Assembly: GCA_902776565.1 (NCBI GenBank)
Contig: CACYQN010000002.1
Span: forward strand, 62,001 to 126,000
DNA from: an uncultured Bacteroidia bacterium
Lineage (GTDB): Bacteria > Bacteroidota > Bacteroidia > Bacteroidales > ML635J-15
Direction: 5' to 3'
DNA: 64,000 nt
The notes beneath the pieces were generated by a model. The model was not told the origin of the DNA and did no database searches. It saw nothing but the letters and a program-made list of their open reading frames with translations. This document shows positions 21,573 to 25,426 of this stretch, in pieces; the stretch's first letter is position 1, and each line of letters starts with the position of its first letter. A program made the position numbers and the translations under genes.

Positions 21573-23288
21573 TTATTTTGCTTCCAATAGGTGTTTTGTG
21601 TCATCCTCGACAATGTGCTTGTACCAGTCGTTGCCATATTTTGGCTGCTTAACTTCCGGTGAGTAGTACTTGTAGCCTTCAGGAACTTCGCGTTCGGTCT
21701 TGATGTTGCCGTCAACATACTTTACGAACAAGCTTGCAAAGAGGTTCTGCCATGTTTGCATTGTGTTTTCCGAAGCCTTAGCCGAATATTCGGTAAGTTT
21801 CTTTGCTACATTCTGCGGATTGTTGGCTGCTTCTTCGCGAAGGTCGCCTTCAATCTTTGCGGTCTCATCCTTGAAGTTTCTGTGCAAGTCTCTTCTGACT
21901 GTTTCAATTTCAGGGTAGATGTCGCAGTAGCGTGTGTAAGCGAAGTTTGATACGAGGTTGAAAATCCAGAAAGCTGCATCCGGTTTGAATTTCATCATCG
22001 AGCCGTTGCCTTCGCGGTAAGCGTAAGGAATTTCGGTGATTGATGCGTACATAGGAACATAAACTGTTGTTGCGCAGTCGTCAACGCCAAACCAGTTGAT
22101 AGCACCAAGTACATCGGGCAAATTGCCACGCAACTGAGCTACAAACGAGAAACCGGTCTGCTGTGTTCCTGTTGCTCTTTCGTGGATGTAGTTCTTTCCG
22201 TTGTATTCCCAAGTCATTGGTCTCCAGCGATAAGGGCAGTTGAAAGGACCTGCGCCCATTCCCTTGCTCATATCGAGTTCGGTACCTTCGAGGTGGTTGC
22301 CCATGTTGTGCATAACGGTTTCGAGAGTTACTGGCTTAGCAGGCTTTACCCACAGAGGCATTCTGTTGGTTGCATAGCCGTTGGCATCGTATTCTATCTT
22401 GGTGCCCTTTGCATATTCCCAGTACTGGTCCATACCTTCGGCAACATCGTTGAAGAAAGCCCAAACGCGGATTTCGCAGAAGCGAGCGCCGCTGAAATCA
22501 ACTGGTGCGTAAGTGTCGGAGAAACTGAAATCGGCATCGTTGCCCTTGAAGTAACCCTTTTCGCGAGCAAAAGTGATAACATCGTCGGAGTAAACGCAGG
22601 TGATGTTCTTGTCGGTTAGGAGCTTGTCGATGTTCTTGAAAGTAACGACATCCTTGCTCTTCTTTGTTGCCTGCGGGAAAGTGGTGATTCTTGCCTGATT
22701 GGCGTGAGCCGAAACATATCCGTCGGGAATCATCCTTGCAACCCAAACTGCACCTTTCTGACCTTTGCCCTTGCCGATAACTTCGAGAATCCAAGCCTCG
22801 TCCTTGTCAACGATTGAGAACGATTCGCCTTCGCTGACATATCCGTACTTGCTCATAAGTTCGGTCATGACCTTTATGGCTTCGCGGGCGTTCTTTGCGC
22901 GCTGCAAAGCAAGGTAAATAAGGCTTCCGTAGTCGATGATGCCATCGCCTTCCCAGAGTTCCTCGCGACCTCCGTAAGTGGTTTCGCCGATTGCAAGCTG
23001 GTGTTCGTTGACGTTTCCAACTACATTATAGGTATGGAGAACCTGCGGGATGTCGCCGAGATATTGTCCTGTATCCCAGTTGTATATTTTCATCATTGTG
23101 CCTGGCTGGTAGTCGGCAGCAGGACGGTAGTAGAGTTCACCGTAGAGAACGTGGCTGTCGGCGGCGTAGCTGAGGAAAGCAGAACCGTCGTTTGATGCGC
23201 CCTTGGTAACAATGAAGTTCGTGCAAGCGAAACTTGCACTTGCGCTGAACATAAGCGCGATAGTCAATAGTGCGAATAATTTTCTCAT
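21573..23288 (-). CDS. Secreted C69-family dipeptidase (PepD-like)
   Basis: The ATG at 23288 (MRKLFALLT) is chosen because the signal peptide begins there; the frame's upstream extension to 23399 is non-coding in character. After a 21-residue signal the mature protein starts with Cys22 (ACTNFIVTKGAS), the N-terminal nucleophile of the C69 (Ntn-hydrolase) family. SFSIVDKDEAWILEVIGKG and the ENTMQTWQNLF tail fit the family. It probably cleaves dipeptides in the periplasm. With rocD downstream it suits peptide and amino-acid catabolism. Confidence 0.92.
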   Translation of the reverse strand: MRKLFALLTIALMFSASASFACTNFIVTKGASNDGSAFLSYAADSHVLYGELYYRPAADYQPGTMMKIYNWDTGQYLGDIPQVLHTYNVVGNVNEHQLAIGETTYGGREELWEGDGIIDYGSLIYLALQRAKNAREAIKVMTELMSKYGYVSEGESFSIVDKDEAWILEVIGKGKGQKGAVWVARMIPDGYVSAHANQARITTFPQATKKSKDVVTFKNIDKLLTDKNITCVYSDDVITFAREKGYFKGNDADFSFSDTYAPVDFSGARFCEIRVWAFFNDVAEGMDQYWEYAKGTKIEYDANGYATNRMPLWVKPAKPVTLETVMHNMGNHLEGTELDMSKGMGAGPFNCPYRWRPMTWEYNGKNYIHERATGTQQTGFSFVAQLRGNLPDVLGAINWFGVDDCATTVYVPMYASITEIPYAYREGNGSMMKFKPDAAFWIFNLVSNFAYTRYCDIYPEIETVRRDLHRNFKDETAKIEGDLREEAANNPQNVAKKLTEYSAKASENTMQTWQNLFASLFVKYVDGNIKTEREVPEGYKYYSPEVKQPKYGNDWYKHIVEDDTKHLLEAK

Positions 23289-23392
23289 CTCTATGTTTTT
23301 TAGTTTGACTGCAAATTTAATATTTATTCCAATACCAAAAGAAAATAATTTGAGGATTTGAAAATTTGAGGATTCCCGTGTTTGAATATTGA

Positions 23393-23488
23393 TTTGCATT
23401 TCAATAAAATTTATTACTTTTGTTGCAGTGTTTTGGCTAGGTGTTCGAAAGAAACTTAGCCGGCCCCTTCGGGGGCATTTTTATTTTA
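23393..23488 (+). ncRNA. Candidate short plus-strand RNA with promoter and terminator
   Basis: TTTG (23393-23396), 18 bases, TACTTTTG (23415-23422) is a strong Bacteroidota promoter. Downstream, GGCTAGGT (23435) pairs with ACTTAGCC (ends 23461), and GGCCCC-TTC-GGGGGC (23462-23476) is followed by ATTTTTATTTT, a good terminator. The transcript would be about 60 bases with no ORF. It faces the minus-strand units that follow. No RNA family is recognised. Confidence 0.45.
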
Positions 23489-23522
23489 TGCTATGTTTCG
23501 CACCACCATATAAAAGGGCTAA

Positions 23523-23607
23523 ACCATCCACAAGGGATGGTCTAGGTGACGGCTTGATTAATTCATCGCGCCGATGCAAAAGTAGTAATAAATATTTGAT
23601 TAACAAA
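23523..23607 (-). ncRNA. Candidate small RNA, unit 3 of minus-strand array
   Basis: Perfect promoter on the minus strand: TTTG (23604-23607), 19 bases, TACTTTTG (23577-23584). The RNA would start near 23570. A hairpin ACCATCC-CTTGT-GGATGGT (23523-23541) follows, then a weak T-rich stretch. The -33 TTTG lies inside the T-run of the terminator of unit 2. No ORF of note. Confidence 0.4.
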
Positions 23608-23695
23608 AAAAGTGGGCGTTACCCCACCATCCCGGCACTGCTTGAAGTTATCGCGCCACCATCGACAATCCTTAATGGAAAGCGGAGCAAAAGTA
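23605..23695 (-). ncRNA. Candidate small RNA, unit 2 of minus-strand array
   Basis: The -7 element TACTTTTG (23688-23695) sits in the same surrounding sequence as units 1 and 3. The start is near 23681. The transcript of about 77 bases ends in a compact terminator: GTGGG-loop-CCCAC on the minus strand (23612-23627) followed by seven T (23605-23611). No clear -33 match. Confidence 0.4.
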
Positions 23696-23730
23696 GTGAA
23701 AATATTTGAATGACAGATGTGTTTTATAAG

Positions 23731-23850
23731 AAAAAAGACTTCAAAACTGCCTCGTTGAACTACAATCAACGCTCTCGTTCCGAAGTCATACCTTGCCAAC
23801 CTGCCAGTCTAGGACCCGAAAGCCCTAGTCCGATTGACATCGCAAAAGTA
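23731..23850 (-). ncRNA. Candidate small RNA, unit 1 of minus-strand array
   Basis: The -7 element is TACTTTTG (23843-23850) and the start near 23836. The transcript of about 105 bases carries CTAGG...CCTAG and CGTTGA...TCAACG hairpins. It ends in GACTTC...GAAGTC (arms at 23782-23787 and 23737-23742) plus six T. A seven-codon ORF beginning ATGACTTCGGAA lies within the final stem but has no support as a gene. Confidence 0.42.
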
Positions 23851-23866
23851 GTGAAAATATTGGAAC

Positions 23867-24045
23867 AAAAAAATGTGGGCTGCTTACAATATGTAAGCAC
23901 AAATACCCACACAGCAAAAAACTGGAGGGGGAAGAGGGACTTCCCAAGCCTTGCCCAATTTTTTGCAAAAAAGGAGGCCAACGTGGGTCTCCAGTGCTTT
24001 TTGCATCGAGTCATTGCTAACCCCATACTAGGCATTACAAAATTA
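23867..24045 (-). ncRNA. Candidate small RNA, unit 0 of minus-strand array
   Basis: TAATTTTG (24038-24045) fits the -7 element. The transcript of about 165 bases could form CTGGAG/CTCCAG and GGAG/CTCC stems before T-runs. It ends in a strong terminator in which TGTGGG...CCCACA encloses TGCTTAC/GTAAGCA, followed by seven T (23867-23911). Open frames through it look like chance. Confidence 0.4.
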
Positions 24046-24087
24046 TAGATAATAATATTGTCTTGCAAGCAAATAAGTTGATTTTTT

Positions 24088-24255
24088 TCAGAACCCGAGA
24101 ATTTTTCGGATTAACCACAGAAGTAATTCAAAGCCGACTTCTCCTAAAATAAATATAATCAAGATAATGCCCGTTATAATGGAATTGTTGAAAAGACATG
24201 CTGCCAGAATGGCAACTATCGTATCTGCAACTATGTAAAATATCAGGCGTTCCAT
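24088..24255 (-). CDS. Small membrane protein, 55 residues
   Basis: ATG at 24255, stop at 24088. The product starts MERLIFYIVADTIVAILAAC and continues with a second hydrophobic stretch (SIITGIILIIFILGE) and a basic end (LLWLIRKILGF). It looks like a two-segment membrane protein. It begins 12 bases after the stop of the SYPD-repeat gene, so a two-gene operon is likely. No family recognised; the support is frame, hydropathy and position. Confidence 0.5.
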   Translation of the reverse strand: MERLIFYIVADTIVAILAACLFNNSIITGIILIIFILGEVGFELLLWLIRKILGF

Positions 24256-24267
24256 AATCGCAGAACA

Positions 24268-24576
24268 TTAATAAAGTCCGGGGTATGAATCAACAAACCT
24301 AATAGTAACGTCAGGATATGAATCCACGAAACGAATTTTGACATCGGGGTACGAATCAACGAATTTCCACAATCCGCATCTGTCAGGATAAGAGTCAACG
24401 ATTTTCACTTCAAGGTCAGGATATGAATCAACAATCTTAACATCCAAGTCGGGATATGATTCCACCACCTGTACTCGTCCATACAGCGGATGTCCCTTGC
24501 AGGTGCATTTTTCCTTGTCTATCTTCGGGGTTGCTGCCATTACAAGCGGCATAACAAAAAGCAGAATCCATTTCAT
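24268..24576 (-). CDS. Exported SYPD-repeat protein, 102 residues
   Basis: A short signal peptide (MKWILLFVMPLVMAA) leads into KCTCKGHPLYG and then six copies of a unit of about 11 residues: V-[ED]-SYPD followed by alternating hydrophobic and charged residues (VVESYPDLDVK, IVDSYPDLEVK, then FVDSYPDVKIR and FVDSYPDVTIR). The third unit carries an insert (SYPDRCGLWKF). The pattern predicts stacked beta strands. Cys residues near the N-terminus and in the insert could form a disulfide. I have seen related SFPD/SYPD repeats in other bacteria but cannot name a family or function. A promoter-like duplicated sequence lies just upstream (24599-24640). Confidence 0.8.
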   Translation of the reverse strand: MKWILLFVMPLVMAATPKIDKEKCTCKGHPLYGRVQVVESYPDLDVKIVDSYPDLEVKIVDSYPDRCGLWKFVDSYPDVKIRFVDSYPDVTIRFVDSYPGLY

Positions 24577-24598
24577 AAGACCGAATTTATTTTGATAA

Positions 24599-24640
24599 TC
24601 GAGTGCAAGTTAATGAAAATTGATGAAAGGACAAAGGAAA
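24599..24640 (-). promoter_or_regulatory. Promoter-like 42-bp sequence, copy 1 of a duplication
   Basis: This 42-bp stretch recurs at 24990-25031 with two mismatches. On the minus strand it reads TTTG (24632-24635), 19 bases, TAACTTGC, a two-mismatch version of the -7 element. The SYPD gene starts 28 bases beyond. Confidence 0.55.
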
Positions 24641-24679: not shown

Positions 24680-24802
24680 TTAACGCTTGCTGTAACGCCT
24701 TTTGAATGCATCCCACGAACTATTCTTGTCGTATTTTCCCGGATGTTTAATCCAGTCGATTGTGATATATAGTCCAACAATTATGATGATAATCGTAAGC
24801 AT
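24680..24802 (-). CDS. Small membrane protein, 40 residues
   Basis: ATG at 24802. The product is one membrane helix (MLTIIIIIVGLYITIDWI) followed by a basic tail (KHPGKYDKNSSW, FKRRYSKR). The longer open frame upstream is not used, since a perfect promoter lies inside it with its -7 element 18 bases before this ATG. The family is not recognised. The short helix plus basic tail is typical of small inner-membrane regulators, but function is unknown. Confidence 0.55.
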   Translation of the reverse strand: MLTIIIIIVGLYITIDWIKHPGKYDKNSSWDAFKRRYSKR

Positions 24803-24884: not shown

Positions 24885-24974
24885 CTAACGGGAGTTTTTT
24901 TTCTTCCTTTCGTCCACGATAAGGAATTTGTACCCAAAGTAAACAATCAATATTAAGGCGATAAGTTCAAGCAT
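24885..24974 (-). CDS. Very small membrane protein, 29 residues
   Basis: ATG at 24974, TAG at 24885. The product MLELIALILIVYFGYKFLIV plus a charged tail (DERKKKNSR) is one membrane helix with a basic end, the same plan as the 40-residue protein next to it. It lies 21 bases after the second copy of the duplicated promoter-like sequence. Its shortness leaves chance open. Confidence 0.42.
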   Translation of the reverse strand: MLELIALILIVYFGYKFLIVDERKKKNSR

Positions 24975-24989
24975 ACCATAAAGTATTTA

Positions 24990-25031
24990 TCGAGTGCAAG
25001 TTAATGAAAATTGATGAAAGAGCAAAGGAAA
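24990..25031 (-). promoter_or_regulatory. Promoter-like 42-bp sequence, copy 2 of a duplication
   Basis: Near-identical to 24599-24640, with the same TTTG-N19-TAACTTGC layout on the minus strand. It stands in the same place relative to the ATG at 24974 as copy 1 does to the SYPD gene. Flanking bases up to about 25070 also resemble 24846-24895. Confidence 0.5.
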
Positions 25032-25092: not shown

Positions 25093-25268
25093 AATGTCAA
25101 CAATAGACATTACACCACAGTTGTGTCGGATTTGCAATCCGACACATGCGAGTATCAGCATTTGTAATGCGAAAACAAAATACCATTAAACGGATTAAAA
25201 ATCCTAATATTCACGTTGTCTGGATTACCGCTTGGCGCGGTGAGCTAAAGGTTGCAAATCCAGACAAC
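25093..25268. repeat. Intergenic inverted repeats in a gene-free stretch (24975-25426)
   Basis: The stretch before the next gene holds no convincing ORF. It contains AATGTC/GACATT (25093-25111), a hairpin GTGTCGGATT-TGC-AATCCGACAC (25123-25145), and GTTGTCTGGATT (25215-25226) inverted at 25257-25268. Between the last arms lies GAGCTAAAGGTTG (25242-25254), a dispersed motif found again near 33.4-33.6 kb. Confidence 0.65.
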
Positions 25269-25426
25269 CTTGTTGATTATGGGATGTGTTGATATGATGT
25301 GTTTTGCCCGATTGTGTTGTGTTTGCTTTATAAAATTTCATTTGCAAAGTTTTAACTAAATATTATGTATAAGGTACGACACCATTATATATATTTGTTT
25401 TGAAATTGATTTTAAAATTTACGGCT

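Follow-up and report, generated by a model that had tools for sequence, protein, structure and literature searches.

Organization of the locus

The window analysed here is a stretch of 64,000 nucleotides (G000:C2:62001-126000) from a genome of 3.36 Mb in 31 contigs. It contains, between the gene for a C69 peptidase and a small open reading frame termed ORF A (24255-24088), an array of short units of candidate small RNA (sRNA) genes, with further small ORFs beyond ORF A.

23288-21573, minus: C69 peptidase gene
23312-23319, minus: the peptidase gene's own promoter, TAAATTTG / TAAATTTGC, just before the gene start; kept in relatives without the array
23393-23484, plus: plus unit; promoter TTTG-18-TACTTTTG, hairpin GGCTAGG..CTTAGCC, terminator GCCCCTTCGGGGGC and T-rich tail
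23487-23584, minus: u3; promoter TACTTTTGC, two hairpins with compensatory changes
23604-23695, minus: u2; promoter TACTTTTGC, invariant core GGCGCGATAACTTCAAGCA, terminator GTGGGGTAACGCCCAC and T7
23731-23850, minus: u1; promoter TACTTTTGC, two-hairpin body, T-run at 23736-23731
23867-23913, minus: u0x; strong hairpin TGTGTGGG...CCCACA and T7 (folding z -4.8); window only
23965-24045, minus: u0; -7 box TAATTTTG at 24045-24038, body, terminator hairpin at 23992-23973 and T-run
24088-24255, minus: ORF A; 55-aa hydrophobic protein
24268-24576, minus: ORF B; signal-peptide-like start, then VDSYPD-type repeats
24680-24802, minus: ORF C; 40-aa hydrophobic protein with a basic tail, identical in the relative G021
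24885-24974, minus: ORF D; 29-aa hydrophobic peptide MLELIALILIVYFGYKFLIVDERKKKNSR

The array was carried by three of the 26 genomes of the genus, namely the window's genome, G014 (MAG RUG13712) and G021 (MAG RUG10760), RUG denoting rumen genomes. A scan of species genomes for the u2 core returned two records, both labelled 'uncultured Bacteroidia bacterium', isolates RUG10760 and RUG13712. The peptidase gene was present in all 26 genomes, and in all three carriers the array lies directly upstream of this same gene on the same strand. No array was found upstream of the peptidase in nine close relatives, where the stretch ends in other genes, and the DNA upstream of the peptidase is hypervariable across the genus. 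Judged by eye, the far flank of the array differs among the carriers: the window has a gene at 25421 there, G021 the gene that adjoins the peptidase in G016, G005 and G002, and G014 the gene that adjoins it in G022 and G023. REP-like palindromes occur at 25115-25270 of the window (TGTGTCGGATTTGCAATCCGACACA, plus a TTGTCTGGATT...CCAGACAA pair), and similar DNA adjoins the array in G014 (L038:4678-4774).

Promoters, terminators and junctions

A sequence-only reading of this stretch had proposed four minus-strand -7 elements and one plus-strand promoter, and these were confirmed at 24045-24038 (u0), 23850-23843 (u1), 23695-23688 (u2) and 23584-23577 (u3) and, on the plus strand, as TTTG at 23393-23396 separated by an 18-nt spacer from TACTTTTG at 23415-23422. 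The sigma-ABfr promoter consists of TAnnTTTG at -7 and TTTG near -33 (PMC7366714). The four TAnnTTTG boxes of this Bacteroidota type in the minus strand from 24045 to 23487 compare with 0.54 expected from dinucleotide shuffles (P(>=4) = 0.001), and five terminator-like sites were found on both strands of 23200-24300, one of them inside ORF A, compared with 1.2 +/- 1.1 in shuffles. As had also been described, the promoter surroundings GCAAAAGTAGTgAaAATATTtGA are common to u1, u2 and u3, a hairpin with a T-run ends each of u0, u1 and u2, and the plus unit closes with the terminator GCCCCTTCGGGGGC and a T-rich tail. The plus unit is present in the window only and is convergent with u3. An extra strong hairpin with a T-run, u0x, lies between u0 and u1, and the T-run of u3 itself is lost in the window and kept in G014.

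The overlap noted earlier between the T-run of u2 (TTTTTTTG) and the -33 TTTG of u3 was confirmed, with a spacer of 19 nt, and is seen again in both G014 and G021. A TTTG closing a T-run at this same distance was found for u3a, u2b and u3b of G014 and for u3 of G021, as for u3 of the window. Overall, TTTG at 19 nt was present for u3 in all three genomes, for u2b and for u4 of G021, and was lacking in the window for u1 and u2. A -7 box was found for u0 to u4 and uB, and u5 has only the variant TAACTTCG; the TAnnTTTG scan gave no clear -7 box for uC and u0x.

Gain and loss of cassettes among the carriers

The order of units is u0-u0x-u1-u2-u3 in the window, u0-u4-u1-u5-u2-u3 in G021 and u3a-uB-[ORF A]-u5-u2a-uC-u2b-u3b-u4a-u4b in G014, and the pieces common to the carriers are 86-99% identical. 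G014 holds two copies each of u2 and u3 and G021 one of each; u0 recurs in G021 with its stem kept and an indel in its loop, and u1 is 98.5% identical in G021. Since the unit orders differ among the three carriers, the cassettes were duplicated and lost as wholes, and the comparison shows duplication, loss, insertion and swapping of entire promoter-body-terminator cassettes.

The bodies that follow the similar promoters differ, as previously remarked, and those of different unit types are not significantly alike. Among 45 pairs of bodies compared, P fell below 0.02 only for u4-u4a (P 0.003), u2-u3 (P 0.007) and u4a-u5 (P 0.017), and only u4-u4a, which also shares the ends GCrGTGCGggg and CCCGTTCCTTTTTT, is convincing given 45 tests. 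The unit types share promoter/terminator junctions and not bodies, and they are therefore not one diverged family. The idea of a family with diverged bodies thus holds for the true duplicates within the u2, u3 and u4 types, and fails between unit types, which share junctions without convincing similarity of their bodies.

Long BLAST matches to the array were confined to G014 and G021 among 100 relatives, the others being short and mostly covering the promoter part; unit bodies matched only in the carriers among all 26 genus genomes, and elsewhere in the window's genome the units are absent except for promoter-like matches. In Rfam 15, no family exceeded the gathering threshold over the whole window, and a relaxed search gave chance-level hits only. 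No array unit matched the phage and plasmid collections. A 15-mer of u2 occurred in 67 stretches of viral contigs, which by our own estimate is about chance for a collection of that size, and no longer u2 pattern was found there. Covariance models of u3 and u2 run on 248 genomes gave weak hits only outside the three carriers, the best of 29 bits. The two best outside hits of the u2 model had no adjoining TAnnTTTG box and four hits of the u3 model showed no array by eye, and all were taken as chance; these searches point to no credible relative of u2 or u3 outside this group. A search for the spacing pattern of three promoters matched 97 of the 248 genomes as well as controls, mostly in coding or repetitive DNA, and was not discriminating.

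Elsewhere in the same genome, tandem cassettes at G000:C1 62020-65549 (L040:2021-5550) each combine an SSB paralog (Pfam PF00436), an unknown protein of 136-140 aa and a divergent promoter, TATTACTACTTTTGC, a 15-base sequence also present in u3. This promoter leads into an RNA-like hairpin of 80-126 nt with a long closing stem and a T-run. The RNA-like bodies differ, one recurring in G002 and several containing TTGGCA...CAGGCTG, and the promoter match is likewise accompanied by SSB genes in G002, G007, G013 and G016.

Folding, covariation and coding potential

In the window, folding was far more stable than that of shuffled sequences for u1 (z -4.2), for the plus unit (z -3.6) and for u3 (z -2.2), and folding of u0 (z -1.2) and u2 (z 0) was not clearly better than that of shuffles; u4, u5 and u3 of the relatives also fold strongly. 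Compensatory changes, for which the earlier reading had recommended comparative folding, were present at two pairs of u3, in an alignment limited to four sequences because only three genomes carry the array. Each of the four sequences has standard pairing at all 18 named pairs of u3. Pair 14-24 is U-A in one sequence and A-U in the others, pair 43-55 is C-G in two and A-U in the other two, and one copy has a 1-nt insertion in a loop. Structures slid by 1-3 columns gave zero pairs changed on both sides, and the shuffle control was modest (19/500 by score and 106/500 by pair count). In u2, the copies in the carriers showed one-sided changes only and no double change; its 19-nt core is invariant.

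The helices of u3 were kept through changes on both sides at two pairs, and the unit therefore represents an RNA and not an ORF. A reading frame for u3 and u0 was ruled out by indels. A 24-codon frame runs from the 5' end of u1, for which two nearly identical copies cannot decide coding. The statement that the array holds no convincing ORF was borne out in that no ORF of it is conserved in the carriers, and predicted RNAs of about 50-110 nt agree with the sizes anticipated earlier. The proposal of a cluster of putative small RNAs is thus well supported by the duplication and loss of cassettes, the double changes in u3 and the lack of a conserved ORF; its suggestion of one family is only partly right.

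Small ORFs beside the array and complementarity of u2 to ORF D

The array is part of a small island that also carries genes for tiny hydrophobic proteins, and ORFs A, C and D are all small and hydrophobic with charged ends. In all three carriers ORF A adjoins the array or, as in G014, lies inside it. Its protein, found in three of 149 genomes, is 91-93% identical among them, and its codon changes are mostly synonymous (synonymous:non-synonymous, 7:5, 6:4 and 7:3). ORF B has no Pfam match and is degraded in both relatives, with a short remnant in G014. A 42-nt stretch that contains TTTG-N19-TAACTTGC occurs before ORF D (24989-25031) and before ORF B (24598-24640) of the window and also in G021, as a further promoter-like module employed again ahead of different small genes.

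The u2 core GCGAUAACUUCAAGCA is complementary to 15 of the 16 bases of UGCUUGAACUUAUCGC, which starts at the second base of the ORF D start codon (AUGCUUGAACUUAUCGCC). The antisense score of this pair was 13, compared with 9 for the next best combination of any unit with the ORF part of the island in the window, and none of 600 shuffles scored over start regions reached 13 (maximum 12). With at most one mismatch, the 16-mer occurs in G000 at u2 itself, at ORF D and at a single C7 site; the other near-matches of the core inspected in the three genomes appear to fall within genes. ORF D was not found in G014 or G021, though both keep the u2 core unchanged; it is therefore not a general target, and the pairing cannot explain the conservation of u2 there. 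The complementarity is thus seen in the window only and is not conserved as a pair. No other unit had a convincing target nearby, and the conserved ORFs A and C are without a matching unit. Whole-length duplex energies were driven by base composition and were uninformative. The only functional lead is a tentative one, that u2 may regulate ORF D as type I antitoxins do.

Discussion

Considering these results, we propose that the stretch is probably an array, specific to this lineage, of independent intergenic sRNA genes that stand head to tail and evolve by cassette exchange. Each cassette would comprise a sigma-ABfr-type promoter (TAnnTTTG, in several cases with TTTG at -33), a body of 50-110 nt and an intrinsic terminator. 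The T-run of a terminator doubles in several of them as the next -33 box, and the cassettes therefore fit end to end. The units share an AT-rich junction of some 35 nt, which would be a likely substrate for unequal recombination, and RNAs of this kind would most likely base-pair with mRNAs. A wider version, to be held only as a possibility, is that the locus is a modular island of RNA genes whose junctions serve as exchange points, at which unrelated sRNA bodies and tiny membrane-protein genes under the second repeated promoter may be shuffled into lineage-specific sets of regulatory or antitoxin RNAs.

It is fairly unlikely that the units are functionless promoter and terminator debris of a recombining repeat region, being transcribed noise or REP-like selfish DNA. 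The hypervariability upstream of the peptidase across the genus, the REP-like palindromes nearby and the lack of the array in most relatives are consistent with such an origin; however, the rest of the genome has only promoter-like matches to the units, u1 is nearly identical between genomes and the u2 core does not change, in contrast to the variable terminators and loops, and the stems of u3 are preserved by double changes. We also consider it unlikely that the array consists mainly of type I antitoxin RNAs, with ORFs A, C and D as toxins whose start regions are blocked. The small size, hydrophobicity and charged ends of these ORFs, their staying with the array, the complementarity of u2 to the ORF D start codon above 600 shuffles and the putative type I pairs reported in B. 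thetaiotaomicron (PMC7366714) agree with this reading, but one unit pairs with one ORF only, ORF D is missing in both other carriers of u2, and ORFs A and C are conserved without a matching unit. A cis-regulatory leader, in which serial promoters and attenuators control the downstream peptidase gene, would suit the position of the array directly upstream on the same strand in all three genomes and is nevertheless rejected as highly improbable, since just before its start the peptidase gene carries a separate TAAATTTGC promoter that array-less relatives keep, ORF A lies inside the array in G014, and a convergent unit separates array and peptidase in the window.

To our knowledge, the origin of new bacterial sRNA genes is an open question. 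The array of independent sRNA genes that we favour displays duplication, loss and replacement of cassettes within one small locus of three close genomes, and if the RNAs are expressed, it would be a compact natural test bed for how sRNA genes are born and lost in Bacteroidota.

The Ldr/Rdl and Ibs/Sib systems of E. coli are type I loci in which very small hydrophobic ORFs adjoin repeated small-RNA genes and the antisense RNA overlaps its toxin gene. The present locus differs from them in that only u2 and ORF D are complementary, and this pair is not conserved. FopS and GibS of Bacteroides thetaiotaomicron are multicopy intergenic sRNAs whose spread by phages is suspected (PMC11697453). The array resembles them as a set of multicopy intergenic units in Bacteroidota, theirs being about 65-145 nt (PMC11697453). 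However, FopS members have a conserved 5' seed (PMC11697453), and the units here are arranged head to tail with unrelated bodies among types; comparison of the bodies with one another, rather than with the FopS sequence, revealed no conserved 5' seed shared by the unit types, and the word 'tandem' is absent from the FopS/GibS paper (PMC11697453). It is also absent from the transcriptome map of B. thetaiotaomicron, which describes no head-to-tail cassettes sharing promoter/terminator junctions and in which 27 of the 49 high-confidence intergenic sRNAs are strain-specific (PMC7366714). Those intergenic sRNAs were chosen by a start site with a sigma-ABfr-type promoter together with a Rho-independent terminator (PMC7366714), and the array units are like them in combining these two elements.
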